A stretch of DNA of 64,000 nt from a virus. Position 1 is the stretch's first letter. Every line of letters starts with the position of its first letter. Location of the stretch: positions 40,151 to 104,150 of the IMG/VR virus record IMGVR_UViG_3300047089_000152, one strand, 5' to 3'. A model generated the notes under the pieces. It saw only the letters and a list, made by a program, of their open reading frames with translations. It was not told where the DNA came from and did no database searches. This document shows, in pieces, positions 2,557-50,375 of the stretch. Made by a program: the position numbers and the translations under genes.

Positions 2557-2975
2557 TGAACGGTCAGACTGTCCCCCGGCCCCGGCCGTGCGCGTCGTGT
2601 CCGTACCGTAGAGACGTGCCGTCCGGTGTGTGGGCCGCGGAAGAATATGACAAGCTACCCCGCTACGACGGGGACACGGGTGAGCAGGCGATGGCCGGGG
2701 CGTTCGGCGTGTTCATGTGTCACCAGGCTGACGGGCACCTGTGTTCAGGTTGGGTAGCCGCCCACGACATGCAGCACAACCTGGCGATACGCATGGCCCG
2801 CGACGTGGACATGCCAGCGGTCCTGTCGTACACCACGGACGTGTCGGTGTTTGGTTCCGGTGCGGAAGCCGCGGCGCACGGCAAGGCCGACATCGAGACC
2901 CCGGGGCCGGAAGCTATGCGGACCGTGGAGAAGATCACCGTGGTACGCGGTAGGCGCGGGAAAGGGAAAGGATGA
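2556..2975 (+). CDS. Cysteine-containing conserved protein (DUF6283-like)
   Basis: 139 residues, overlapping the previous stop codon by one base. It starts with CASCPYRRDVPSGVW, continues with AEEYDKLPRYD, then FMCHQADG and LCSGWVAAHD. This ordered set of cysteines and histidines is the hallmark of a family common in actinobacteria and their phages whose biochemical role is not established. The C terminus is basic (GRRGKGKG). Likely co-transcribed with the helix-turn-helix gene before it. Confidence 0.75.
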   Translation: MNGQTVPRPRPCASCPYRRDVPSGVWAAEEYDKLPRYDGDTGEQAMAGAFGVFMCHQADGHLCSGWVAAHDMQHNLAIRMARDVDMPAVLSYTTDVSVFGSGAEAAAHGKADIETPGPEAMRTVEKITVVRGRRGKGKG

Positions 2976-3133
2976 GGCGGCCTAGGACGGAGCTGGAAGC
3001 GTACCGGTGTCCTGATTGCGGGTACACGGCGTTGATACAGCGGCTGGCTAGCCGGAGGAAGCTGACGGGGCATTTGAAGTGGTTGTGGTGTGTGCGGTGT
3101 GAGGTGCCCACGAATCATGTACTGGTCCCCTAG
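2972..3133 (+). CDS. Small zinc-ribbon-like protein
   Basis: 53 residues with ATGA overlap to the preceding gene. Two knuckles, CPDC near residue 13 and CVRC near residue 41, are separated by a basic helical stretch, as expected of a one-metal zinc ribbon. Its tight coupling to the upstream frame supports translation. Last gene of the unit starting at 1729. Confidence 0.6.
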   Translation: MRRPRTELEAYRCPDCGYTALIQRLASRRKLTGHLKWLWCVRCEVPTNHVLVP

Positions 3134-3145
3134 CCTGGACGGTTG

Positions 3146-3161
3146 TGGTACGCTGTGGGTA
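3146..3161 (+). promoter_or_regulatory. Extended -10 promoter in front of GG-repeat element E1
   Basis: TGG TACGCT GTGGGTA, matching the recurrent element. The DNA immediately downstream (3174-3305) is GG repeat rather than an open frame, and a second promoter of the same class lies at 3318. Confidence 0.6.
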
Positions 3162-3173
3162 CAGCAAACGGAC

Positions 3174-3305
3174 CGGAAGGGAAAGGCTGGGCGCGGCAGG
3201 CATCGCAGCGGCCGGGATAGCAGCGGATCGGAGCGGCAGGACAGGATTGGCAGGGCACGGCTGGGCTAGGTGTGGCTGGGCTGGGAACGGAATGGATTGG
3301 ACACT
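3174..3305 (+). repeat. GG-repeat element E1
   Basis: About 130 bases of degenerate units of the form NNNGG with occasional 4-base CAGG units (for example GGATTGGCAGGG near 3247). G is on the plus strand. Bounded left by the promoter at 3146 and right by the promoter at 3318. No reading frame here looks like protein. Confidence 0.8.
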
Positions 3306-3370: not shown

Positions 3371-4036
3371 ATGCCACCACGCAAGACCACCACAGGCGGA
3401 CCAGTCCAGCTCACCAGGCTGGCAGAAGAAGTCGCCCAAATCCACATCGCCGGGGCTACGCCACTTATTATTCATAAATGGTCGGAAAAGGCGCTCAACC
3501 AGATGCGGATCGCCCAGTCCGGGGCAATTAAGCCGCCCCGCGAACCCAAGAACGCCGAAGAAAACGCCCACGCGGCAACATACTGGGTCGACGTCGCCGA
3601 GACGATCCCCGGCATCCCCAGCGTCTCATTCAAGGCCGCCATGGTCGGAGCCTGCCGGTTCTTCGACGGCCTCCCCATGACGACAGCAAAATTGCTGTTC
3701 TTCGTCGACGGGGTCGTCAGCGAAGCCAAGGGCGACGCGCCAGCACGCGACCTGCTCGTCCCGATTATCTCCGGCCCTGGGGAAATGCGGGAAGACACCC
3801 CGCGCAACGACAACGGAAACCCGGACCTCCGGTACAGGAATCAGTTCTTCCCGTGGAAAGCCGTACTCAACGTGCGGTTCATGCCCGCGAAGATCGCCCC
3901 CGAATCCGTCATCGCGCTAGCTGACGCCGCCGGTCGTGGCGGTGTCGGAGAATGGCGTCCATCCGCACCGAAAAGCGCGACTGGCACATACGGCCAGTTT
4001 CGTGTCATCACCCGGAAGGAATGGGAGTCGGCCTAA
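3371..4036 (+). CDS. Conserved phage protein, unknown function
   Basis: 221 residues. Visible features are an N-terminal 'PLIIHKWSEKAL' block, a central 'VSFKAAMVGACRFF', and a glycine-rich C-terminal 'GRGGVGEWRPSAP' followed by YGQFRV. This order of blocks occurs in uncharacterised proteins of many phages, usually paired with a second small gene as here. The glycine-rich loop recalls RAMP/Cas7-type RNA-binding folds, but that is speculation without a structure prediction. Promoter at 3318; the next gene starts one base after its stop. Confidence 0.65.
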   Translation: MPPRKTTTGGPVQLTRLAEEVAQIHIAGATPLIIHKWSEKALNQMRIAQSGAIKPPREPKNAEENAHAATYWVDVAETIPGIPSVSFKAAMVGACRFFDGLPMTTAKLLFFVDGVVSEAKGDAPARDLLVPIISGPGEMREDTPRNDNGNPDLRYRNQFFPWKAVLNVRFMPAKIAPESVIALADAAGRGGVGEWRPSAPKSATGTYGQFRVITRKEWESA

Positions 4037-4037
4037 A

Positions 4038-4595
4038 ATGGCGACCATCACCGTCGAACAGCAGTGGGCGTTCAAATCGGGTGCGCGTGTCCCGGGTGGC
4101 GTCCACGCCGAGGATGTGGTGCGTGAGAAGGAACAGATGGAAGACCACCTGGGCCGCCTCGCCACCACGGAGGAAGCCGCGGAAATGGTCCTCCGCTGGC
4201 CTACCAAGTACAAGGCGCACCGGGCGTTCGCACCGGCAACCGAGAAAGAAGCACTCCACGAAGCAGTGGTACGCGGTGTTCGGAGCGCCTGGAGTTCCGT
4301 GATTCAGGTCGACGTCGAAATCACCGAGGTCACCAACCGGATTTCCGGTGATATCGAGATCGCAACCAGGCGTGTCGACGCACCCGAAGTGAGATGGTTT
4401 CACGCCGTGCCAGCACGCGTCGGCGACACGCAACGAGTTTATGACTCGTTGCCGAATATCGCAGCCGATGCTGACAAGGAAGCGGCGCTGTCCGAAGATC
4501 TCGCCACGCAAGCACGCAACTTCTCCGCAAAAGTAGCCAGCGTCACTGGCGAGCTGGCGCGGTTGCACAAGTTGCGCAGCACCGCCGGAAATTAG
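4038..4595 (+). CDS. Conserved phage protein paired with the 3371 gene
   Basis: 185 residues. The start at 4038 is chosen because it falls one base after the upstream stop; a longer frame from 3936 would overlap that gene. Mostly alpha-helical by composition, with a likely coiled-coil end (LSEDLATQARNFSAKVASV). No catalytic motif is seen. A perfect-stem terminator follows at 4599. Function not recognised; probably acts with the 3371 product. Confidence 0.65.
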   Translation: MATITVEQQWAFKSGARVPGGVHAEDVVREKEQMEDHLGRLATTEEAAEMVLRWPTKYKAHRAFAPATEKEALHEAVVRGVRSAWSSVIQVDVEITEVTNRISGDIEIATRRVDAPEVRWFHAVPARVGDTQRVYDSLPNIAADADKEAALSEDLATQARNFSAKVASVTGELARLHKLRSTAGN

Positions 4596-4639: not shown

Positions 4640-5932
4640 TAAGGGGAGTGGAGGGGCAGGGACTGTCGTGGCAAGGAACGGCAGGGCACGGAGTGGATTG
4701 GCAGGATAGGCTCGGCGCGGCCAGGCGGGGAGCGTTTCGGAGTGGCATGGATTGGCTGGGACTGGCAGTATCGGATCGCAGTGGTCAGGGTAGGCAAGGC
4801 CCGGCCAGGCGGGGCTCGGTATGGCCTGCACTGGCGGGGAACGCAATGGAGTGGCAGGACCGGTGTGGAATGGCTGGGACGGGAACGGCGCGGTAGGGAA
4901 TGGAGTGGCAGGAACGGTGGGGCCGGGCGCGGCGCGGCTAGGCTCGGCGCGGACGGGCATGGATTGGCTGGGCAGGACAGGATCGGAGAGCAGGGGGCTG
5001 GCGCGGCATGGCACGGAGAGGCAGGAGAGGAACGGTCGGGACAGGAGCGGCAAGGAGCGCACCGGCAGGCAGCGGCAGGGAATGGCATGGAACGGACTGG
5101 ATTGGCAGGACAGGACCGGCATGGCCAGGAGGGGCATGTCCTGGAATGGAATGGCAGGAATGGCTGGGTACGGCGGGGCCGGGCGAGCATTGGACAGGAC
5201 CGGCAGTCGCGGAAGGGCTCGGCAGGGACCGGATTGCAGCGGCGAGGATGGGCTAGGCAGGAGCGGAACGGCAGGGCATGGCCTGGATCGGAGCGGCTGG
5301 GCAGGATAGGCATGGATCGGCCTGGGTAGGCAAGGAGGGGCTGGGACGGGACCGGATTGGCAGGGCAGCAGTGGAGAGGCAAGCCGTGCAATGGCGGGGC
5401 GGGGCGTGGCATGGACTGGACCGGCAGGACTGGACTGGACTGGATTGGAGAGCAGGGCAGTGGCAGGGATCGTAGGGGTTCGGACGGGCAGGTTAGGCTT
5501 GGACGGGCTAGGCGTGGCATGGGCCGGCAAGGAACGGCTCGGAGCGGCAGGGATTGGCACGGCTCGGAGTGGCAGGACCGGACGGGTACGACGTGGCGTG
5601 GCTGGCATTGGCAAGGACTGGCAGGAGTGGATTGGCAGGGCCGGGCTTGGCATGGCGTGGCTGGGAATGGCGTGGCAGGACAGGTGGGGCTTGGCGGGCC
5701 GGGGATCGGCACGGATGGGCATGGCATGGCCCGGTAGGGCATGGCAGCATTGGACTGGACCGGACCGGCAAGGCTTGGCTTGGCTGGGATCGGATGGGAA
5801 CGGCAGGAGCGGAGCGGACTGTCGTGGCATGGCATGGCCTGGCGTGGCGCGGATCGGACGGGCAGGATAGGTCGGGCGTGGAATGGAACGGACGGGCTGG
5901 GCATGGAACGGCAGGATAGGAGTGACCCGCAG
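4640..5932 (+). repeat. GG-repeat element E2, 1.3-kb array
   Basis: About 1.29 kb made almost entirely of NNNGG pentamers with intermixed 4-base units; the trinucleotides vary (ATT, AAT, CAT, CTG, AGC, ATC, CAC) while GG recurs every 4-5 bases. Consecutive GG pairs separated by 3 bases fit the pattern of two-tier G-quadruplexes. It opens all reading frames on both strands, giving long but meaningless frames of Pro/Ser/Cys or Gly/Arg/Trp. No unit is exactly conserved, which separates it from CRISPR or simple satellite DNA. Flanked by hairpins at 4599 and 5938. Confidence 0.9.
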
Positions 5933-5980: not shown

Positions 5981-6133
5981 ATGATCTTGTGCTCGTGCGG
6001 CCATCCTGCGGTCGAGCATGACCTGAACCGTTCGGAGACTAAGCGAACAGTTTGCCTGACCACCGAACGGACTACGAAATGTCCGTGCGTGCTATATTCA
6101 CCAGACCTTCGTGATACACTAGAGGTACAATGA
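5981..6133 (+). CDS. Small CxCGH zinc-finger-like protein
   Basis: 50 residues with the spaced pattern CSCGHPAVEHD, then C and a final CPCVLYSP. Such CxCGHx5H...CxC peptides are frequent in actinophages and are presumed to bind zinc. The C terminus runs over the promoter and start codon of the next gene, overlapping it by 4 bases. Ribosome site is weak (GGCGGTGG), so the start is uncertain. Confidence 0.5.
   Translation: MILCSCGHPAVEHDLNRSETKRTVCLTTERTTKCPCVLYSPDLRDTLEVQ
6112..6127 (+). promoter_or_regulatory. Extended -10 promoter for near-leaderless ParB-like gene
   Basis: TGA TACACT AGAGGTA, ending 3 bases before the ATG at 6130. The message would carry at most a few untranslated bases. 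Confidence 0.7.
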
Positions 6134-6999
6134 ACGAGACCATAGAACGAGAAGACCGCAGGGCCGTCACCGCGCTCACCTCCGGGGAAAACGCCACGAA
6201 GGTCACCGTCAAAACAAGCGACGGCAACTACGAAGAACGACAGCTAACCGTCCACGGGCTCGCACGGCTGATTCCCGTGATCGCACTGGGCGACATGGAC
6301 CGGCTGATAGACGACGTGCGCGAACACGGCGTCCTCGAACCCCTGATCATGTTCCAGGGACAAGTCCTTGACGGACGCAACCGGCTCGCCGTAGCTTCGG
6401 TCGTCGGCGTACCCGTGCAGCTCACCGAATTCGACGGAGACGAAGCCGCAGCCAGAAACTTCGTCTGGTCCGCGAACGCTGCGAGGCGGCACCTGTCCGT
6501 CCCCCAGATCGCGCTGGCCGCTGAACGGTTCGGTTTCGTCGACGCCGCCAAAGCCGAAGCAGGCCCCGACGACCCCAACCTGGATATCCGCTCGACGGTC
6601 GCACCATGGGCGCGAATCGCCGCGCGAAAGGTCGGTGCGATCACCCCGGCTACACTGGAACGGTTCCAGCAAGCCAGGATCCCCGAGGCACCCGACACGA
6701 TGCGCCGGGTCGATTCCGGTGAGATCCGCCGGGTCGACGTCGCGGTCAAGGAAGCGGTCGCGGAGCGGACCGTGCTCACCGGCCGTCTCATCCAGGTTCC
6801 ACCCCCGGTTGCGCGTACCGCGTGGGACCGGCTGGGCTGCGCGCGGGGTGACGTTCTCGCCGCGGAACGCGCCATCCTGGCAGGGGACTGGGGTGGGATG
6901 GAAAGGGACCAGTTCGCTGTCCGCGCCCGTGAAATCCAGGGAGCCCTGATCAGGATTCAGAATTTGTATCGTTATGGATCGGGCGGCAGGACCGGTTAG
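6130..6999 (+). CDS. ParB-like nuclease-domain protein
   Basis: 289 residues. Residues about 55-125 contain the ParB N-terminal fold signature: MDRLIDDVREHGVLEPL, then QVLDGRNRLAVA (81-85 DGRNR, the phosphate-binding loop) and the FVWSANAARRHLS segment. The C-terminal half is helical and may bind DNA. Phage ParB-like proteins serve in partition, CTP-dependent DNA sliding, or as small nucleases; the sequence does not decide which. The last codons lie in GG-repeat DNA (GSGGRTG), showing that element E3 has grown or inserted right up to the gene end. Confidence 0.75.
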   Translation: MNETIEREDRRAVTALTSGENATKVTVKTSDGNYEERQLTVHGLARLIPVIALGDMDRLIDDVREHGVLEPLIMFQGQVLDGRNRLAVASVVGVPVQLTEFDGDEAAARNFVWSANAARRHLSVPQIALAAERFGFVDAAKAEAGPDDPNLDIRSTVAPWARIAARKVGAITPATLERFQQARIPEAPDTMRRVDSGEIRRVDVAVKEAVAERTVLTGRLIQVPPPVARTAWDRLGCARGDVLAAERAILAGDWGGMERDQFAVRAREIQGALIRIQNLYRYGSGGRTG

Positions 7000-7055
7000 G
7001 ACGGGCTAGGAATGGCTGGGCTGGGCATGGACTGGAATGGCAGGAATGGAATGGC
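6982..7055 (+). repeat. GG-repeat element E3
   Basis: About 70 bases of NNNGG-type repeat (GGCTGGGCATGGACTGG and similar) spanning the stop codon of the ParB-like gene and the start codon of the next gene. No promoter or hairpin accompanies this copy. Confidence 0.7.
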
Positions 7056-7323
7056 TAAGCCGGATTTCGCCCACGGCGTGCAAGGCTACAACTGGCACAA
7101 GTGCCGGTGCGAACAGTGCCGGGCGGCTAACTCCGCCCGGTCCCGTACCTCCCGCGCTGCCCGCAAAGCACGCACCGCGGCGGGTGACCCCGCCGTCCCG
7201 CACGGGACCAGGGGCGGGTACACCAACTGGGCGTGCCGGTGCCTGCCATGCTCCCAGGCCAACAGCGAGGCGTGCCTGGAATACCGGAACGCCCACAGTA
7301 ACCGTCAGGACATCGTGACCTGA
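7051..7323 (+). CDS. Two-repeat Cys-rich protein (HGxxxGYxxWxCRCxxC)
   Basis: 90 residues from the ATG at 7051; an in-frame ATG at 7012 would translate GG repeat. It carries two copies of one unit: HGVQGYNWHKCRCEQCRAAN near residue 7 and HGTRGGYTNWACRCLPCSQA near residue 52. Each has a CxCxxC trio likely to bind zinc. The segment between is very basic (RSRTSRAARKAR), suggesting nucleic-acid binding. Function unknown. Confidence 0.7.
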   Translation: MAKPDFAHGVQGYNWHKCRCEQCRAANSARSRTSRAARKARTAAGDPAVPHGTRGGYTNWACRCLPCSQANSEACLEYRNAHSNRQDIVT

Positions 7324-22582: not shown

Positions 22583-22598
22583 TGGTAGGATAGTAATT
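22583..22598 (+). promoter_or_regulatory. Extended -10 promoter of GG element E4
   Basis: TGG TAGGAT AGTAATT, a diverged member of the plus-strand element, pointing against all surrounding genes. The next features downstream on this strand are GG repeat and an 18-bp hairpin. Confidence 0.5.
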
Positions 22599-22718
22599 GC
22601 ATTGGAGGGGCATGGCATGGCACGGCCCGGAGTGCTGGGGTGGGGAACGGAATGGATGGGCAGGATAGATCCAGGTTGGTGCGCATCTTTTACAGGTGCG
22701 CACCAACCTGGATCAGAA
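22598..22718 (+). ncRNA. Candidate short RNA: GG-repeat element E4
   Basis: Between the promoter at 22583 and the hairpin at 22668 lies about 65 bases of (NNN)GG repeat (22604-22667). The predicted transcript of about 120 bases runs opposite to the genes on both sides and would be antisense to the 3' end of the 22690-23100 gene. There is no open frame of note. The arrangement is repeated at 39328 and, in part, at 46425 and 50280. Confidence 0.45.
22668..22714. terminator. 18-bp hairpin overlapping a gene end
   Basis: GATCCAGGTTGGTGCGCA (22668-22685) pairs perfectly with 22697-22714; the loop contains TCTTTT. It covers the last codons and stop of the minus-strand gene 22690-23100, and also ends the GG element on the plus strand. 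Confidence 0.8.
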
Positions 22719-23100
22719 ATGAGCATCCCATGTATTGCTGGCCGGCGTATTCGGTGAGTCCGTAGGTCATCACCTGCAATACGACCGTGAACTCCACCGC
22801 CCCGCCCAGGGTCGGGTCAGCCTGCACCGCCGCGTTGATGCTTTTAGTACCGGACGTGGACACGTAGTCGTCGATTACGTCCTGGCCGGAAGCGTCGTTC
22901 GCGGCGGATACCAGCACGACGGCGAGGAGATTGACCTGGGTTTCGCCGTCCATCGTGATGCCGTAATTGACCGCTGGCCGGTTCGGGATTATGACCGCGC
23001 ATGGCGGTATGACCTGCCCGGGTGCGATCGCGTGTACGTTCAGCCCGGTGGTGGATAGCCGGGTTGCGAGCGCGACCCTGATCGCTTTGACGTTAGCCAT
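22690..23100 (-). CDS. Head-tail joining or tail terminator protein
   Basis: 136 residues, starting directly after the stop of the small gene at 23101. The pattern 'VKAIRVALATRLSTTGLNVHA', 'IPPCAVIIP', 'NLLAVVLVSAAND' and the C-terminal 'YMGCSFLIQV' fits the tail terminator/neck family that caps the tail tube. Its final 9 codons form one arm of the 22668 hairpin. Assignment rests on order (between connector and major tail protein) and fold pattern. Confidence 0.65.
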   Translation of the reverse strand: MANVKAIRVALATRLSTTGLNVHAIAPGQVIPPCAVIIPNRPAVNYGITMDGETQVNLLAVVLVSAANDASGQDVIDDYVSTSGTKSINAAVQADPTLGGAVEFTVVLQVMTYGLTEYAGQQYMGCSFLIQVGAHL

Positions 23101-37364: not shown

Positions 37365-38319
37365 CGGGGTGCTCCCGGTACCAGTCAGACGTCAATGCCA
37401 GCCCAGCTTCAAAGCTGACCTGGGGTCCGTCGTAGCCCAGTGCCATGATCTTCCCGATGTCCGGTAGCCGCCGCGAAGGACTGCCCTGCGGGAGGATACC
37501 AGTCTCGATTTTGATCCGCCGGAAATACCGTTGCGCCACGGCGTAGGCCACATCCGCGACAGTCCGCTCATCCATCGTGCCCAGGTGGTAGATCTCCGCG
37601 CCACGCGGCGACTTGTCCAGCAGCGTCACGAACTGTTCCACGCAGTCACTGATGTAGCAGAACGACCGGGTTTCCTCACCGCTACCCTGGATCAGGAACG
37701 GGACCGGGTCCAGGGTGGAATTCGCCAGGCCGTTCATGCGCTGGCAGAACTCCGGTATCACATGCCGGGTGCCCATGTCCGGCCCGTAAATGTTGTGGGG
37801 CCGGACGATGATCAGCCGGTCCAGGATCCCGGTCCGCTGCCACGCCAGCGCGGCCAGCTCGGAAGCGATCTTCCCGCCCCCGTAGGAGTAGCGGGGGTTC
37901 AGCGGGTCAGGGACTACCAGCGGCACGGTCTCCGGGGTCGGCCACACCGGGGGTGTCTCGTACGCCTCGGAAGAGGAGACCAGCAGAAGTTCCCGGCAGC
38001 CCGTCACCCGGCACGCTTCCAGGACGTTCACGATGCCGCGCAACGCCACGTCCAGAACCTGCCGGGGTTCAGAATAGAAAGTCTGGGTGCCTTGCAGATA
38101 CGCCAGGTGCAGGACCCGTTCACAGCCGTGCATCGCCCGGGTCACCACGTCAGGGTCGCGGACATCACCGTTGACGATCTCGCAGGCTACCCCCGCCAGG
38201 CGGTCCGGCCGGCCGCGGCTCATGTCATCCAGCACCACAACGTCGTGGCCGTCACCGGCAAGCCGCCGGGTCAAAGCCGAGCCGATGAAACCGGCACCGC
38301 CGGTAATCAGGTATCTCAT
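37357..38319 (-). CDS. NAD-dependent NDP-sugar epimerase/dehydratase
   Basis: 320 residues, extended short-chain dehydrogenase fold. Nucleotide site G7-G8-A-G10-F-I-G13, 'NGDVRDPD', 'LLLVSSSEAY' and the catalytic Y146-x3-K150 in 'YSYGGGK', then 'RPHNIYGPDMGTRHVIPEF' for the sugar nucleotide. Closest in style to UDP-glucose 4-epimerase and related enzymes. It would supply the modified NDP-sugar to the cluster's glycosyltransferases. Confidence 0.88.
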   Translation of the reverse strand: MRYLITGGAGFIGSALTRRLAGDGHDVVVLDDMSRGRPDRLAGVACEIVNGDVRDPDVVTRAMHGCERVLHLAYLQGTQTFYSEPRQVLDVALRGIVNVLEACRVTGCRELLLVSSSEAYETPPVWPTPETVPLVVPDPLNPRYSYGGGKIASELAALAWQRTGILDRLIIVRPHNIYGPDMGTRHVIPEFCQRMNGLANSTLDPVPFLIQGSGEETRSFCYISDCVEQFVTLLDKSPRGAEIYHLGTMDERTVADVAYAVAQRYFRRIKIETGILPQGSPSRRLPDIGKIMALGYDGPQVSFEAGLALTSDWYREHPDG

Positions 38320-39239
38320 CCGGTCATGCTATCCGCACGGGGACGGAACCAGCCAGCCGGGCAACGTCTTTCATGGACCCACCGGGGCCACGTATCGTCC
38401 ACGTCCACCGGGATCATGCCGCCCTGATACCCGAACCGGCCGAACGGGTTCGCACCGTCATGGTAGAACCGGTCATCTTCGTACCCAGCCGCCAAGTCGG
38501 GGTTGCATTCGACATGACAGTGCGCGTCCATCTTCGCGGCGATACTATCCCGGCCGCCCAGCCACGTCAGGTGGTGACCAGCATCGGGGATCACCGGGCC
38601 GCGGCTCCACGTGTCCCGACGCACCGACGACAAAGGCCCCGTAATACCGGCAGGGCACAGCGTGGACGTGCGCAGCGGCGCACCCCACAGCCAGTCGACC
38701 GCGAACATGCAGCAAGCCATTTCCAGGACACCCGTCCTGTGTTCTCCCACCGCGCGCATCGCCGCGTAGTTCGGTATCTCATCGACGTCAGCCAGGATCA
38801 GCCAGTCATCAGCAGACGCCCCGTCCAGCCCAGCCCGGATAGCGTCACGCTGCGCAGCCTCACGGTCCATCGGGGCGGCCCCTGCCATCCCCGGGAGGCT
38901 GTCAGCGACCACGTGGACGATGCGGTCTTTCCACGGCGCGAACCGCTCCTTATTCGCCGCGTAAACGAGAGGTTTCGGGTGTCCCTGATGGTCGACCCTG
39001 GCCTCAACCAGGACGTGCCGGTAGATAGGCCAGTCTTCCATCTGCACCAGCCGGCATTCCAGCACGTCCAGCTCGTCGCGGAACAGGAACGTGTCCCAGA
39101 TTTTCACGCCGCCCATGACCTCCGGTCGTGCCGGGCTACAGCGGGACCGCGCCCACCGGGACACGCACCGCGTGCACATGACGGTCGGGTCGTACGGGTC
39201 CAGTCGCGTCCATGCGCCACACCAGAAACAGTACCCCAC
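38316..39239 (-). CDS. GT17-like glycosyltransferase with N-terminal zinc ribbon
   Basis: 307 residues. Residues 1-40 hold CFWC and CTRC knuckles; family sequence starts at 'VKIWDTFLFRDELDVLECRL', typical of GT17 (beta-1,4-N-acetylglucosaminyltransferase-like), with 'HVLVEARVDHQGHPKPL', 'ILADVDEIPN' (metal-binding DVDE) and 'HCHVECNPDLAAGYEDDRFYH'. The ATG at 39116 (MGGVKIW) is an alternative start that would leave the zinc ribbon as a separate small protein. Confidence 0.82.
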   Translation of the reverse strand: MGYCFWCGAWTRLDPYDPTVMCTRCVSRWARSRCSPARPEVMGGVKIWDTFLFRDELDVLECRLVQMEDWPIYRHVLVEARVDHQGHPKPLVYAANKERFAPWKDRIVHVVADSLPGMAGAAPMDREAAQRDAIRAGLDGASADDWLILADVDEIPNYAAMRAVGEHRTGVLEMACCMFAVDWLWGAPLRTSTLCPAGITGPLSSVRRDTWSRGPVIPDAGHHLTWLGGRDSIAAKMDAHCHVECNPDLAAGYEDDRFYHDGANPFGRFGYQGGMIPVDVDDTWPRWVHERRCPAGWFRPRADSMTG

Positions 39240-39327: not shown

Positions 39328-39343
39328 TGGTACGCTTAGAGTC
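39328..39343 (+). promoter_or_regulatory. Extended -10 promoter of GG element E5
   Basis: TGG TACGCT TAGAGTC, antisense to all adjacent genes; followed by GG repeat and hairpin as at 22583. Confidence 0.55.
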
Positions 39344-39470
39344 CGAGCCGAGGCAGGATGGGATTGGCATGGCGCGGCAAGGTAGGGCTCGGATCGGCAA
39401 GGAATGGATAGGAACGGCAGGAGTGGCAGGGTGCGGTCCTCTCGTATCGGGAGGACCGCATCTCCATTTT
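39343..39470 (+). ncRNA. Candidate short RNA: GG-repeat element E5
   Basis: The gap between the radical SAM gene and the GT17 gene (39240-39477) has no minus-strand frame. On the plus strand it carries the promoter at 39328, about 85 bases of (NNN)GG repeat from 39345, and the hairpin at 39432 followed by CATTTT. Predicted RNA length is about 120 bases. Confidence 0.45.
39432..39460. terminator. Hairpin between radical SAM gene and GG element E5
   Basis: TGCGGTCCTC pairs perfectly with GAGGACCGCA around a 9-base loop. It lies 18 bases past the stop of the minus-strand radical SAM gene and at the end of the plus-strand GG element, so it can end both. Confidence 0.75.
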
Positions 39471-39477
39471 CCAACCG

Positions 39478-40761
39478 TCATCCTGCCGCCATATGTGAGT
39501 CGAAGAAATTATCCTTCGGGCCGATATGGGAACGGAACTTGTACTTACGGATCAATTCCTCGCGGATTCCCACGAGGTCTTCTGAACTGAGTTCCGCCGT
39601 GCGGACCACGGAATCGGTACCCATGTTCTTTTGCCCGTAGGCGCCAAGTCCTTCTCCAGTAAATATCAGGTCGGTAGCTATTCCCTCGTCCATTTCCCGC
39701 CTGAATTCTGTGCCGCGATAAGGATAATAGATAGCAATCTGCGCATCATCTATCCCTGACGTGCAGATGAACCGTTCAGTCTCCGCGATCGTAGCGCGTG
39801 TCTCGCCGGGTAGCCCGATCATCACGAATGCTTTCACGGTGATGCCCGCATCCTTGCAGTACCGGACACAATCGTAATTCTGCGTGGCGGTTGTCTTCTT
39901 ATCCATCCGGTCTAGCATCTGCTGCGACCCGGATTCCGCACCAAACGCCACCTCGACACACCCCGCATCGGCTAGCGCCGCGGCGAACTCCGCGGTCATG
40001 AATTTCGCGTGCACATTGCAGCGAAATCTTAGCCCGGAGCGCTTGAGTAGGTCCAGGTACGGCTGGCACTTCCCCAAATTAATTGCAAAAAGATCATCAT
40101 ACAAATACACGCCCTCATACCCGAGCGTCACGATGTCGTCCAGTTCGGCCTCGGCGTTGCCCAGCGAAGTCCACCTGGTCAGCGTCCGCGCGTCTTCACA
40201 GAACTTGCACGCCATCGGACAGCCCCGGCCGAGCATCATCGTGGTCGAGTTCAGCCCGGCCAGGGTGTACGAGTAGTTTTTCAGGAACCCAGGCTCACCC
40301 AGCCGGTCCGGGCGGGGCATCGCCGCTAGTTCCTGCCGGGGGATCTGGTCGTTGCTCATGACAGGAACCGTTTTGTTCTGCACGATGCCTGGCAGTGCCC
40401 GCTCCCCGTCGCCTGCCACCAGGTAGTCCCACAGCCCGGCCTGGTCGTCTGCGTTCATCTCCCGGCCGTAATGCCGGACGTGCGGGCCGCCTGCCACCAG
40501 AACTTTGGACGGCCAGCGGCTCCTGATCGCGCGGGCTATCCGGTTAGCCTCGGCGCGCTGCGGTGTCATCACCGAGACGCCTACTATGTCAGCGTCCGCG
40601 AACTGGTCCAGATCCTCGACGTCGTATTCGTCTACGACGCTGATCTTAGTACCGGGGGCCTGCGCGGCCACCGCGGATTTCAGGTACAGCAGGCCGAGGG
40701 GCGGGTAGATACGGTCGTCGTCCAGGAACGGGGACCGGCAGGAAACCAGGGACAGTTTCAT
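39478..40761 (-). CDS. Cobalamin-binding radical SAM enzyme
   Basis: 427 residues. Residues 1-130 are a B12-binding Rossmann domain (YPPLGLLYLKSAVAAQAPG, DADIVGVSVMTPQ, KVLVAGGPHV). C181-x3-C185-x2-C188 in 'GRGCPMACKFCED' binds the 4Fe-4S cluster; 'YLYDDLFAIN', 'VEVAFGAESGS' and 'VKAFVMIGLPGET' complete the radical SAM barrel. Class B enzymes of this type methylate unactivated carbons or rearrange sugars and phosphonates. Codon use between 39,480 and 40,100 is visibly AT-richer than neighbours, suggesting acquisition. It probably modifies the glycan or a virion protein. Confidence 0.88.
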   Translation of the reverse strand: MKLSLVSCRSPFLDDDRIYPPLGLLYLKSAVAAQAPGTKISVVDEYDVEDLDQFADADIVGVSVMTPQRAEANRIARAIRSRWPSKVLVAGGPHVRHYGREMNADDQAGLWDYLVAGDGERALPGIVQNKTVPVMSNDQIPRQELAAMPRPDRLGEPGFLKNYSYTLAGLNSTTMMLGRGCPMACKFCEDARTLTRWTSLGNAEAELDDIVTLGYEGVYLYDDLFAINLGKCQPYLDLLKRSGLRFRCNVHAKFMTAEFAAALADAGCVEVAFGAESGSQQMLDRMDKKTTATQNYDCVRYCKDAGITVKAFVMIGLPGETRATIAETERFICTSGIDDAQIAIYYPYRGTEFRREMDEGIATDLIFTGEGLGAYGQKNMGTDSVVRTAELSSEDLVGIREELIRKYKFRSHIGPKDNFFDSHMAAG

Positions 40762-46049: not shown

Positions 46050-46406
46050 TCAGGATTTCCTGGCGGGCCGGGCCTTATTCATAGATTTCGCGGGCTTTTT
46101 AGCCGCGGGCTTAGCCGCAGCAGGCTTCGCTTCGGCAGCAGGCTTCGCGGTCTTCGCGGCAGCTGAATCGCCCTTACCCTGCGAGGATGGCAACTCCGGG
46201 TATTTCCGACGGACCGCTGCCTGAACTTTTGCCTTCTCCGCAGGCGTCCCATTCGCCGCAACTCGTGACAGGGCGTTAGCGCCCCGTGCCTTAGAGTTAA
46301 TAGGGTATGCGTCAGCACCACCAGGACCACCACCAGGCAGCGCATACGACCCAGCCGGCGCGGCAGTATTAGGCGCAGGCTTACCGGTCTTCTTCCTCGG
46401 TGGCAT
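46050..46406 (-). CDS. Basic Ala/Lys-rich protein with YPINSKARGANALSR motif
   Basis: 118 residues from the ATG at 46406 with AGGGAG upstream; the open frame continues leftward into GG repeat, which is not coding. Centre 'ADAYPINSKARGANALSRVA' and 'AAVRRKYPELP' is a recurring phage block. The C-terminal half is a KPAA-type repeat (AAAKPAAKKPAKSM), histone-H1-like and strongly basic, suggesting DNA binding in the head. Confidence 0.7.
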   Translation of the reverse strand: MPPRKKTGKPAPNTAAPAGSYALPGGGPGGADAYPINSKARGANALSRVAANGTPAEKAKVQAAVRRKYPELPSSQGKGDSAAAKTAKPAAEAKPAAAKPAAKKPAKSMNKARPARKS

Positions 46407-46424: not shown

Positions 46425-46500
46425 AGGTATGGAGGGGTGCGGCTTGGCGTGGCTTGGCGGGGCGCGGCGGGGATTGCATTGGATTGGATTGGCAGGAACG
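46425..46500 (+). repeat. GG-repeat element E6
   Basis: About 75 bases of (NNN)GG repeat, ending GGATTGGATTGGCAGG as in E7. Located between the portal stop and the start of the 46050 gene, G on the plus strand. A TATAAT at 46406-46411 could serve as its promoter but it coincides with the minus-strand start codon, so this is doubtful. Confidence 0.75.
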
Positions 46501-46535
46501 TCACTGACCTGCACCTACGCGGTGCAGGTCAGTGA
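46501..46535. terminator. 15-bp hairpin at portal gene end
   Basis: TCACTGACCTGCACC (46501-46515) pairs perfectly with 46521-46535, loop of 5. It covers the portal stop codon (46529-46531) on the minus strand and closes the GG element on the plus strand. Confidence 0.8.
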
Positions 46536-48164
46536 TTCCCGTTGTGTCCGTTTGAGCTGGCCTTCGGCGGAATCCACGGCCCGACGAACTCGGGGCCAAG
46601 CGCATCATCACGTTCCGCCTGGCGGACCGCTGCGACAATCTTCGCGAACACTTCCGGGTGGACACTGGAACCATCGCCGCGCACGGACGTGATCTCCTTG
46701 ACGATCTCCTGGAGAACATTCGGCGGGACGAACCCGCCCGCACCCGCAGCACCAGCCGCACCCGCCACGGCAGGCCCGTTCGCGCCCAGAGCACCAGGCA
46801 CGTTTATCCCAGGCGGGGCGTTCCCCGCACCAGGCCCCGACGGCTGACCCGTACCCGGCGGCAACCCCACCGGCTCCTGACCAGCCTGGAGTTCTTGCAG
46901 ATACTCGACCAGCAGCCGCTGTTCCAGGGTGACCTGCGGGAGGAACGAATTCGGGATCGCCCGCGTCGACCGGGCCATCGCGACAATCGCGTCCAGCGGG
47001 ATCGTGTCCTTACCCATCTGCTGCGGCAACGGCTCCAGGTCCTCCGTGTCACGCATCTCATCAATCGACTTGAACCCGATGTCCCGCCACGTCTTGTAAA
47101 TGTTCGCCCGTTCAGCCAGGTCAGCTTTCAGCAGCGCGTCAGTAGCGAACCGGGCGTAACGGTTCGCCGGTAGCAGCTTGAAGAACGCGGTCTCCAGCCG
47201 GACCAGCCACGGGCGCAGCGCCTCGATGATCTGCAACGCACCCTGCTGCACCGTGGAATACGTCAGCGAGTCGCCACGCTTACCACCCACCCGGTCAGGA
47301 GGCAATCCATAAACAGCGGCGAGCTGCGTCGCGTTCATCTGCATCGCCTCAATAAACTGCGCCTCCGACGGCGGAACAGTCACCGGGTGATAATCCCAGT
47401 CACGACCGTATACCAAGGGGGTCCTGTTGCGAATCGACTGGTTCAGTGCGCTGCGGATCTCCGCAGCCTGCGACGGGTCGATCTCGATCTCGTTGTTCTT
47501 GAACGTACCCGGAGGGAACCCGCCGGCCTTGAACCAGTCCGTCCCGAACCGGGTAGCCTCCAGGCCATTCAGGATCGTCAACGCGAACGCGCGCAGCGGA
47601 GAGATACCCTCCGTGCGGCCAGCAAGACTGAATGCCTTGATGTGGAAATATTCGTCGCGCTGCATCAACCGCCCGTAAAAATACACGCGGGACCGAAGCG
47701 GATTGTACGGCTGCGACTCGTCGTCAATGACCGTGATCATCTCCGGGGGCATCCACTGGATCTGCGTCGGATACCCGTACCCGTCACGCCCCAGAATGTA
47801 TCCCCACGCGTTACCGTGCAGCAAAAGCGCGGTCAAGCATTCATAAAGCCAATCCATAAGATTTGTTGACGGGGACGGGTCGTCGAATATCGACGGGCCA
47901 TCCCACTTCTTCTGCCCCGCACCCGGCGTTTTAATGTAAACTTTCAGCGGCAACGACGCGATGTACTCAGCGATCATCCGCACGCACGCGTACAGCGGTG
48001 TCAGTCTTAGCGCCTCGTCGGCCCCGTAAAACGAACGGGACGGATGCGCAGGGCCACCAGCACTGAAGGGAAAGTAAATACGGCGAGTCCCACGGCCTCC
48101 AGGGCACGCCAGAAATAACACGACTCTCAGTTTTACTCGCCAGTACCCGCTCGACCAGACCCAC
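46529..48164 (-). CDS. Portal protein, apparently frameshifted near its N terminus
   Basis: The body (about 515 residues) is a clear HK97-type portal: 'LTPLYACVRMIAEYIASLPL', 'HGNAWGYILGRDGYGYPTQ', 'MNATQLAAVYGLPPDRVGG', with a Gly/Pro-rich C-terminal extension. Upstream of 'FPFSAGGPAHPSRSFYGADE' this frame turns into Trp-rich nonsense with no good start. In another frame a GTG at 48164 with AAGGGGGG before it reads MGLVERVLASKTESR, then 'GVPWRPWDSPY', a typical portal N terminus. Joining them needs a +1 shift at 48068-48080 (TATTTACTTTCCC). Either programmed shifting or an indel. Confidence 0.88.
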
Positions 48165-50279: not shown

Positions 50280-50295
50280 TGGTACACTGTAGGTA
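50280..50295 (+). promoter_or_regulatory. Extended -10 promoter of GG element E7
   Basis: TGG TACACT GTAGGTA, identical in core to 8-23 and antisense to the terminase and protease genes. Confidence 0.65.
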
Positions 50296-50375
50296 CAGAA
50301 AGGGGATAGGAGCGGCAGGGCTTGGCCTGGAGAGGATCGGCTGGGATTGGATTGGCAGGCTTTTAGCCGATAGAT
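50295..50375 (+). ncRNA. Candidate short RNA: GG-repeat element E7
   Basis: After the promoter at 50280 about 65 bases of (NNN)GG repeat run to the terminase stop. A 7-bp ATCGGCT/AGCCGAT stem (50336-50342, 50365-50371) encloses the last repeats and is followed by no T run; a TTTT lies inside the loop. RNA ends are less clear than for E4 and E5. Confidence 0.4.

Follow-up and report, generated by a model that had tools for sequence, protein, structure and literature searches.

Analysis of a 64,000-nucleotide stretch of a metagenomic actinophage record (hereafter the window; positions 40151-104150 of a record of 104,150 bases) identifies the E5 cassette, as judged from its sequence, as a solitary and presumably expressed vrRNA of a VIPR system. 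The guide of this vrRNA probably silences the allele of the neighboring radical-SAM gene in rival phages, with the linked own allele being spared. The terminase of the phage is nearest to those of Rhodococcus and Arthrobacter phages (~36%). VIPR itself is already known: it was first described in 2026, for two systems, and, according to the main text of the preprint, it pairs Vipr, a RAMP protein, with vrRNAs in which GGY and NN alternate and which skip one base as they read DNA; its action is DNA binding and transcriptional repression on either strand (PMC13142463).

E5 lies in the 238 bp that separate a GT17 gene (38316-39239, minus strand) from the radical-SAM gene and, as the initial annotation had noted, runs in the direction opposite to both flanking genes. 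The locus comprises the following elements:

39328-39336, plus strand: extended -10 promoter-like element TGGTACGCT of E5 (sequence, shuffles)
39352-39355, plus strand: upstream 4-nt GGCA unit of E5 (phase-slip boundary)
39356-39415, plus strand: E5 guide region, NN = TG TT AT GC AA AG TC TC AA AT TA AC
39416-39419, plus strand: downstream GGCA boundary unit of E5
39432-39460, plus strand: E5 13-bp hairpin, 3' end or terminator candidate
39478-40761, minus strand: radical-SAM / B12-binding gene, this phage's allele of the gene targeted by E5
40076-40110, plus strand: E5 target site in the own allele, matching 20/24 guide bases, encoding VYLYDDLFAINL, GC3 0.25

The promoter, previously written as TGG-TACGCT, opens the cassette; TGGTACGCT occurs three times in the window compared to 0.46 expected, a count that was reached in 0 of 100 shuffles, and the E5 copy lacks the GGTA found after the motif at other sites. 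The ~85 bases of GG repeat reported after the promoter are present as well, with 17 GG at exact 5-nt spacing in strict register. The guide comprises 12 GG[A/C/T]NN units with GGCA flanking each end: after AGGCA, units 1-6 read GGATG GGATT GGCAT GGCGC GGCAA GGTAG and units 7-12 read GGCTC GGATC GGCAA GGAAT GGATA GGAAC, followed by GGCA and then by GGAGT GGCAG GGTGC GGTCC. A Markov-2 model and shuffles of unit order served as nulls throughout, in place of plain GG counts. The chain score, which rewards 5-nt steps, was 15.5 for E5, compared to a maximum of 7 and a median of 5 in 30 Markov-2 genomes of the same size, in agreement with the earlier assertion that the cassette is not a product of chance. 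A 10-bp perfect hairpin near a TTTT had also been described; the hairpin and the TTTT (39467-39470, starting 6 nt past the stem) are there, but the stem is actually 13 bp long and includes one G-U pair (-24.3 kcal/mol, z -6.2). The repeat tract itself folds no more strongly than its shuffles, and scans of E5 for a standard terminator and a sigma-70 site yielded none that passed.

The 104-kb record carries eight GGNNN arrays, E5 among them; six short arrays and one of 1.28 kb are in the window, all on the plus strand, and the eighth is outside of it, on the minus strand. The initial annotation spoke of two independent copies of one layout: the recurrence at separate loci holds, the number had to be revised, and the view that layout rather than sequence is common to the loci was borne out. 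Specifically, the arrays have the GG register in common but not the intervening sequence, unit positions 4 and 5 are mixed, the hairpins are unrelated, and the only common 3' sequence of the cassettes is GGCAGG. The third unit base is A in 46%, C in 45%, T in 7% and G in 2% of 274 units. The 5-nt register is interrupted by a 4-nt GGCA unit where guides meet, and GGCA accounts for 107 of the 130 4-nt slips in all arrays collected, including arrays of GGT or GGA units. The promoter motif TGNTA[CG][AG]NTNNNGGTA is phage-wide (12 sites in the whole record, compared to ~0.2 expected for the extended form) and also precedes the vipr and ParB-like genes. The relevant loci are:

3146-3302, plus strand: promoter TGGTACGCT and vrRNA array upstream of vipr
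3371-4036, plus strand: vipr gene, RAMP/Cas7-like, 221 aa (profile, predicted fold)
4038-4595, plus strand: gene directly downstream of vipr, 185 aa, candidate vipr-accessory protein
4645-5920, plus strand: 1.28-kb array of ~20 concatenated guides, GGCA-separated, beside the RAMP gene
50280-50366, plus strand: promoter TGGTACACT and solitary vrRNA v50354

An IMG/VR scan for GGNNNx14 returned more than 100 contigs, most of them with non-repetitive versions of the pattern. The loci were chosen by this pattern alone, not by protein content, and clustering of the surrounding proteins produced one dominant real family, present at 60 of ~119 loci and including window ORF 3371-4036; another cluster, common to 44 loci, was rejected as an artefact of antisense translation of the arrays. 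The family profile matches PDB 36pp, "SUSP1 Vipr protein", with an E-value of 7e-36, and the ORF as a single sequence matches Vipr weakly (phmmer E 0.56). The AlphaFold model of this protein (pLDDT 91.6) is closest in fold to Csm3, Cmr and type VII Cas7 subunits, and the conserved motifs of the family are GxxPLLxH near the N-terminus, RxRP..W, and a glycine-rich GxGDxRP..GRF. It is the vipr-family gene beside an array, the profile match to SUSP1 Vipr and the Cas7-type fold that assign E5 to the solitary VIPR vrRNAs. A vap accessory gene is listed among VIPR features in the main text of the preprint (PMC13142463); for the 4038-4595 protein, no family or homolog was found.

Comparison of the record with VIPR shows agreement in the RAMP-family Vipr encoded in the same genome, in the 12 tandem 5-nt GG units of E5 with hypervariable NN (9-16 units being typical of vrRNAs), and in a target read with a 1-nt skip that falls on the wobble position. 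The pyrimidine third base of GGY is not preserved, 91% of units having A or C, and there is no invariable structured 3' tail. The GG[A/C] consensus is a VIPR variant rather than a ground for exclusion, because the preprint permits "a related consensus" among its seven types; its main text describes a structured vrRNA tail for both the SUSP1 system and that of P. fulva and notes that array architecture varies in other types (PMC13142463). The identical repeats and unique spacers at a RAMP gene that define class 1 CRISPR-Cas are absent, their place being taken by GGNNN units and GGCA boundaries.

The guide was decoded by taking the NN of the 12 units as 24 guide bases and skipping one target base between pairs. 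The best own-genome match of E5 is the site at 40076-40110, in the adjacent radical-SAM gene ~0.6 kb away; shuffles of unit order reached 17/24 at most, and skips of 0 and 2 performed at chance. In six relatives, IMG/VR contigs that were taken solely for a radical-SAM homolog (75-78%), the guide matches 22/24 bases in 6/6, at the homologous site encoding VYLFDDLFAIN, and the skipped base is the codon wobble position. All VIPR loci collected together supplied 343 guides; 150 have 12 units, and within this group only E5 comes to three mismatches or fewer at any place in 2.4 Mb (skip 0, 1 or 2). No exact match to the E5 pattern, at 12 units or at 10, was found in the viral and GTDB genome collections, because the relatives deviate at two guide bases; these 2/24 mismatches also imply that the actual rival of E5 may be a phage outside the sampled relatives. 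An 8-unit E5 core gave 60 matches, none extendable, and these were dismissed as chance. Exact scans with the guides of other cassettes found nothing or chance matches in unrelated frames, the 17 guides parsed from the 1.28-kb array had no match in the own genome or the six relatives, and the third unit base, judged by eye, did not predict the skipped target base.

The own allele is altered at the target. Its site reads VYLYDDLFAIN, compared to VYLFDDLFAIN in the relatives; two guide-read bases differ between them, one internal (F to Y) and one terminal. The GC3 of the own site is far below that of the whole gene (0.74) and of the relatives (0.75-0.92), ranking 6 of 415 windows, with A or T at 9 of 12 wobble positions. 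According to the main text of the preprint, wobble bases are unread in VIPR decoding (PMC13142463). Either the wobble base counts for this variant, or the site was acted on by some other guide or defence. Codons ~336-348 and ~359-371 of the same gene have GC3 as low as the E5 site and were possibly recoded against other guides. The initial annotation would have been contradicted by relatives that keep the gap but lack the promoter and repeat; the E5 cassette is absent from 6/6 relatives, and none has a gap at the locus (in L130, the GT17 gene directly adjoins the radical-SAM gene). The observation behind the annotation is confirmed and its interpretation supported; the 5-nt code, the partner protein and the target had escaped it. 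No Vipr was found in the contigs of the six relatives, which may be incomplete.

Three further solitary cassettes in the window resemble E5 in this respect:

6984-7060, plus strand: solitary vrRNA v7039, abutting its own match 6948-6977 in the ParB-like gene 6130-6999
22598-22719, plus strand: solitary, hairpin-bearing vrRNA v22659; closest match in the own genome at 22982-23016, within the tail-terminator gene (22690-23100, minus strand)
46426-46537, plus strand: solitary, hairpin-bearing vrRNA v46491; closest match in the own genome at 46354-46391

The last match is in a neighboring small minus-strand gene beside the portal gene. For all three cassettes, the best own-genome match is in the neighbor gene, antisense, and in the same wobble-skip register as in E5, and the top protein-level matches of the four cassettes are likewise all antisense and in the wobble register. 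For example, v7039 decodes to I[RS]I[HQ][HQ][IM]YRYG, and the own protein reads IRIQNLYRYG; v22659 decodes to Q[IM]VPPTGV[IM][IM]P[KN], compared to QVIPPCAVIIPN, and v46491 to KKKKPAP[KN]T[KN]AP[IM], compared to KTGKPAPNTAAPA. The own site of v7039 has a GC3 of 0.40 vs 0.75 (rank 3 of 279); those of v22659 and v46491 have 5-7 NN mismatches and GC3 that is not low, and no target better than the own site was found for either.

Of the 17 solitary cassettes in 124 records, 4 match a site no more than 1.2 kb away at p<=0.01 with skip 1, compared to none with skips of 0, 2 or 3, and the neighbor matches of 246 array guides are at chance. It should be noted that adjacency was first noticed in a set that includes E5 and v7039. 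Cassettes v22659 and v46491 fail this stricter test, probably due to a broken unit in each that the parser cut, and are supported by the own-genome and protein-level matches. When 285 guides of other phages were compared to their own loci, the matches were no better than shuffles. A possible independent case, by its sequence, of a guide beside its own target gene is L020 (9846-9972 in another phage), a solitary vrRNA with a terminator hairpin 3' of the capsid gene: its guide nearly spells the capsid C-terminus GIAWLTPAWK, scoring only one base above its shuffles. L043 carries one more solitary cassette (2871-3071, reverse strand), and a skip-1 match lies near it at p<=0.01.

From these data, we infer the following course of events. 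E5 would be transcribed from its own promoter into an RNA of ~120 nt, in which the GG[A/C] triplets would be held by Vipr subunits in a ribonucleoprotein, whereas the NN pairs would read DNA with one base skipped between pairs. Aimed at the conserved VYLFDDLFAIN segment, the complex would exert CRISPRi-like repression on the radical-SAM gene of related phages when both phages are in one cell; the own allele, altered by the F to Y change and wholesale wobble recoding, would tolerate it. Since the targets belong to the relatives' versions of the genes and the phage keeps a diverged allele alongside, repression of rivals with self-sparing is the likeliest reading, and the altered allele beside the guide suggests a weapon coupled to immunity against it, that is, an attack-plus-immunity unit.

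The same adjacency could instead reflect autoregulation, with solitary vrRNAs repressing the adjacent own gene to set timing or dose and the likeness to relatives resulting from gene homology. The four best own-genome matches beside their cassettes, all antisense, are consistent with it, as is the own E5 site, where two of the 4/24 mismatches are in the terminal unit; self-targeting is conceivable given that own and rival sites differ at just two guide-read bases. We nevertheless consider autoregulation unlikely: a self-regulator is expected to match perfectly, whereas the four own sites have 2, 4, 5 and 7 mismatches, all six relatives match E5 better than its own gene does (22 vs 20), and the own sites of E5 and v7039 are recoded. 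Absence of E5 from the relatives points to recent gain here or easy loss, as would be expected of a decayed or transferred vrRNA that went out of use and came to its place by recombination-borne insertion with a segment of the neighboring gene. Such a relic is improbable in view of the intact 12-unit register, promoter motif and hairpin, the match kept in the homologous gene of relatives, and the intact vipr in the same genome.

TRAP sites have a 5-nt period, and the E5 strand is G-rich with the same period, so that the tract might not be a guide at all but GG-periodic RNA or DNA bound by a TRAP-like ring or filament protein, or an R-loop or G-quadruplex origin element. This is hardly credible, given that Vipr homologs co-occur with GGNNN arrays and that reading the NN positions yields a specific in-frame target under skip 1 only; instead of (G/U)AG triplets 2-3 nt apart, as in TRAP leaders, the element is GG[A/C] and the partner is a RAMP protein.

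Returning to rival repression with self-sparing, a tentative extension, nearly as likely to hold as to fail, is that solitary vrRNAs are linked weapon-plus-immunity units with drive-like co-transfer, in which the wobble base is also read in this variant. The guide would attack the ancestral allele of the neighboring gene in rival phages, and recombination transferring the cassette would carry the recoded allele along, as in homing or toxin-antidote drive. Wobble recognition would account for the wobble-position recoding seen for E5 and v7039, whose own sites have few NN mismatches.

Compared to the SUSP1 system as given in the main text of the preprint (PMC13142463; PDB 36pp), the RAMP protein is of the same family, the tandem 5-nt GG units occur in 9-16 repeats as in type II vrRNAs, and 1-nt skip decoding, the skip on the codon wobble and anti-phage targets are in common; the array search used here recovers the vrRNAs of Escherichia phage SUSP1. 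The differences from that description are GG[A/C]NN instead of GGY, GGCAGG with unrelated hairpins instead of a common structured tail, guides scattered across tens of kb with their own promoters, and several solitary guides adjoining an own diverged target allele. The GGM consensus, the GGCA boundary and the linked guide-plus-allele layout appear to be new relative to the main text, and some may be listed in its supplement. As in class 1 CRISPR crRNAs with a Cas7 backbone, RAMP subunits on a guide RNA leave periodic target bases unread, but there is no spacer-repeat array and the code is noncontiguous. The PhiPA3 intron endonuclease gp210, which acts against PhiKZ, is similarly a weapon encoded at its own non-susceptible gene copy, and the attacked gene belongs to a related co-infecting phage (PMC11620839); gp210 is a protein nuclease inside an intron, whereas E5 is a guide RNA beside an altered allele, with presumed repression and no cleavage. 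These results amount to an independent, sequence-only confirmation of the VIPR skip code in an unrelated actinophage, with the target gene named; they suggest that keeping a guide beside the own altered allele is a route to hitting close relatives and not self, and they make self/non-self discrimination in VIPR directly testable.

Similar loci exist in Mycobacterium phages (Saal, Gorge and others) and Gordonia phages (UmaThurman, ODay), with 36-48% identical Vipr homologs, GGYNN arrays beside them, and GGCA slips; solitary cassettes were not seen in the 12-kb stretches examined. Unannotated vrRNA arrays are located beside the Vipr homolog in Saal (L127, 5598-5841), UmaThurman (L128, 6617-6933) and ODay (L129, 6629-6787). 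The Vipr homologs of all these Mycobacterium and Gordonia phages are annotated as hypothetical proteins, and in UmaThurman the vrRNA array is annotated as gene 40.
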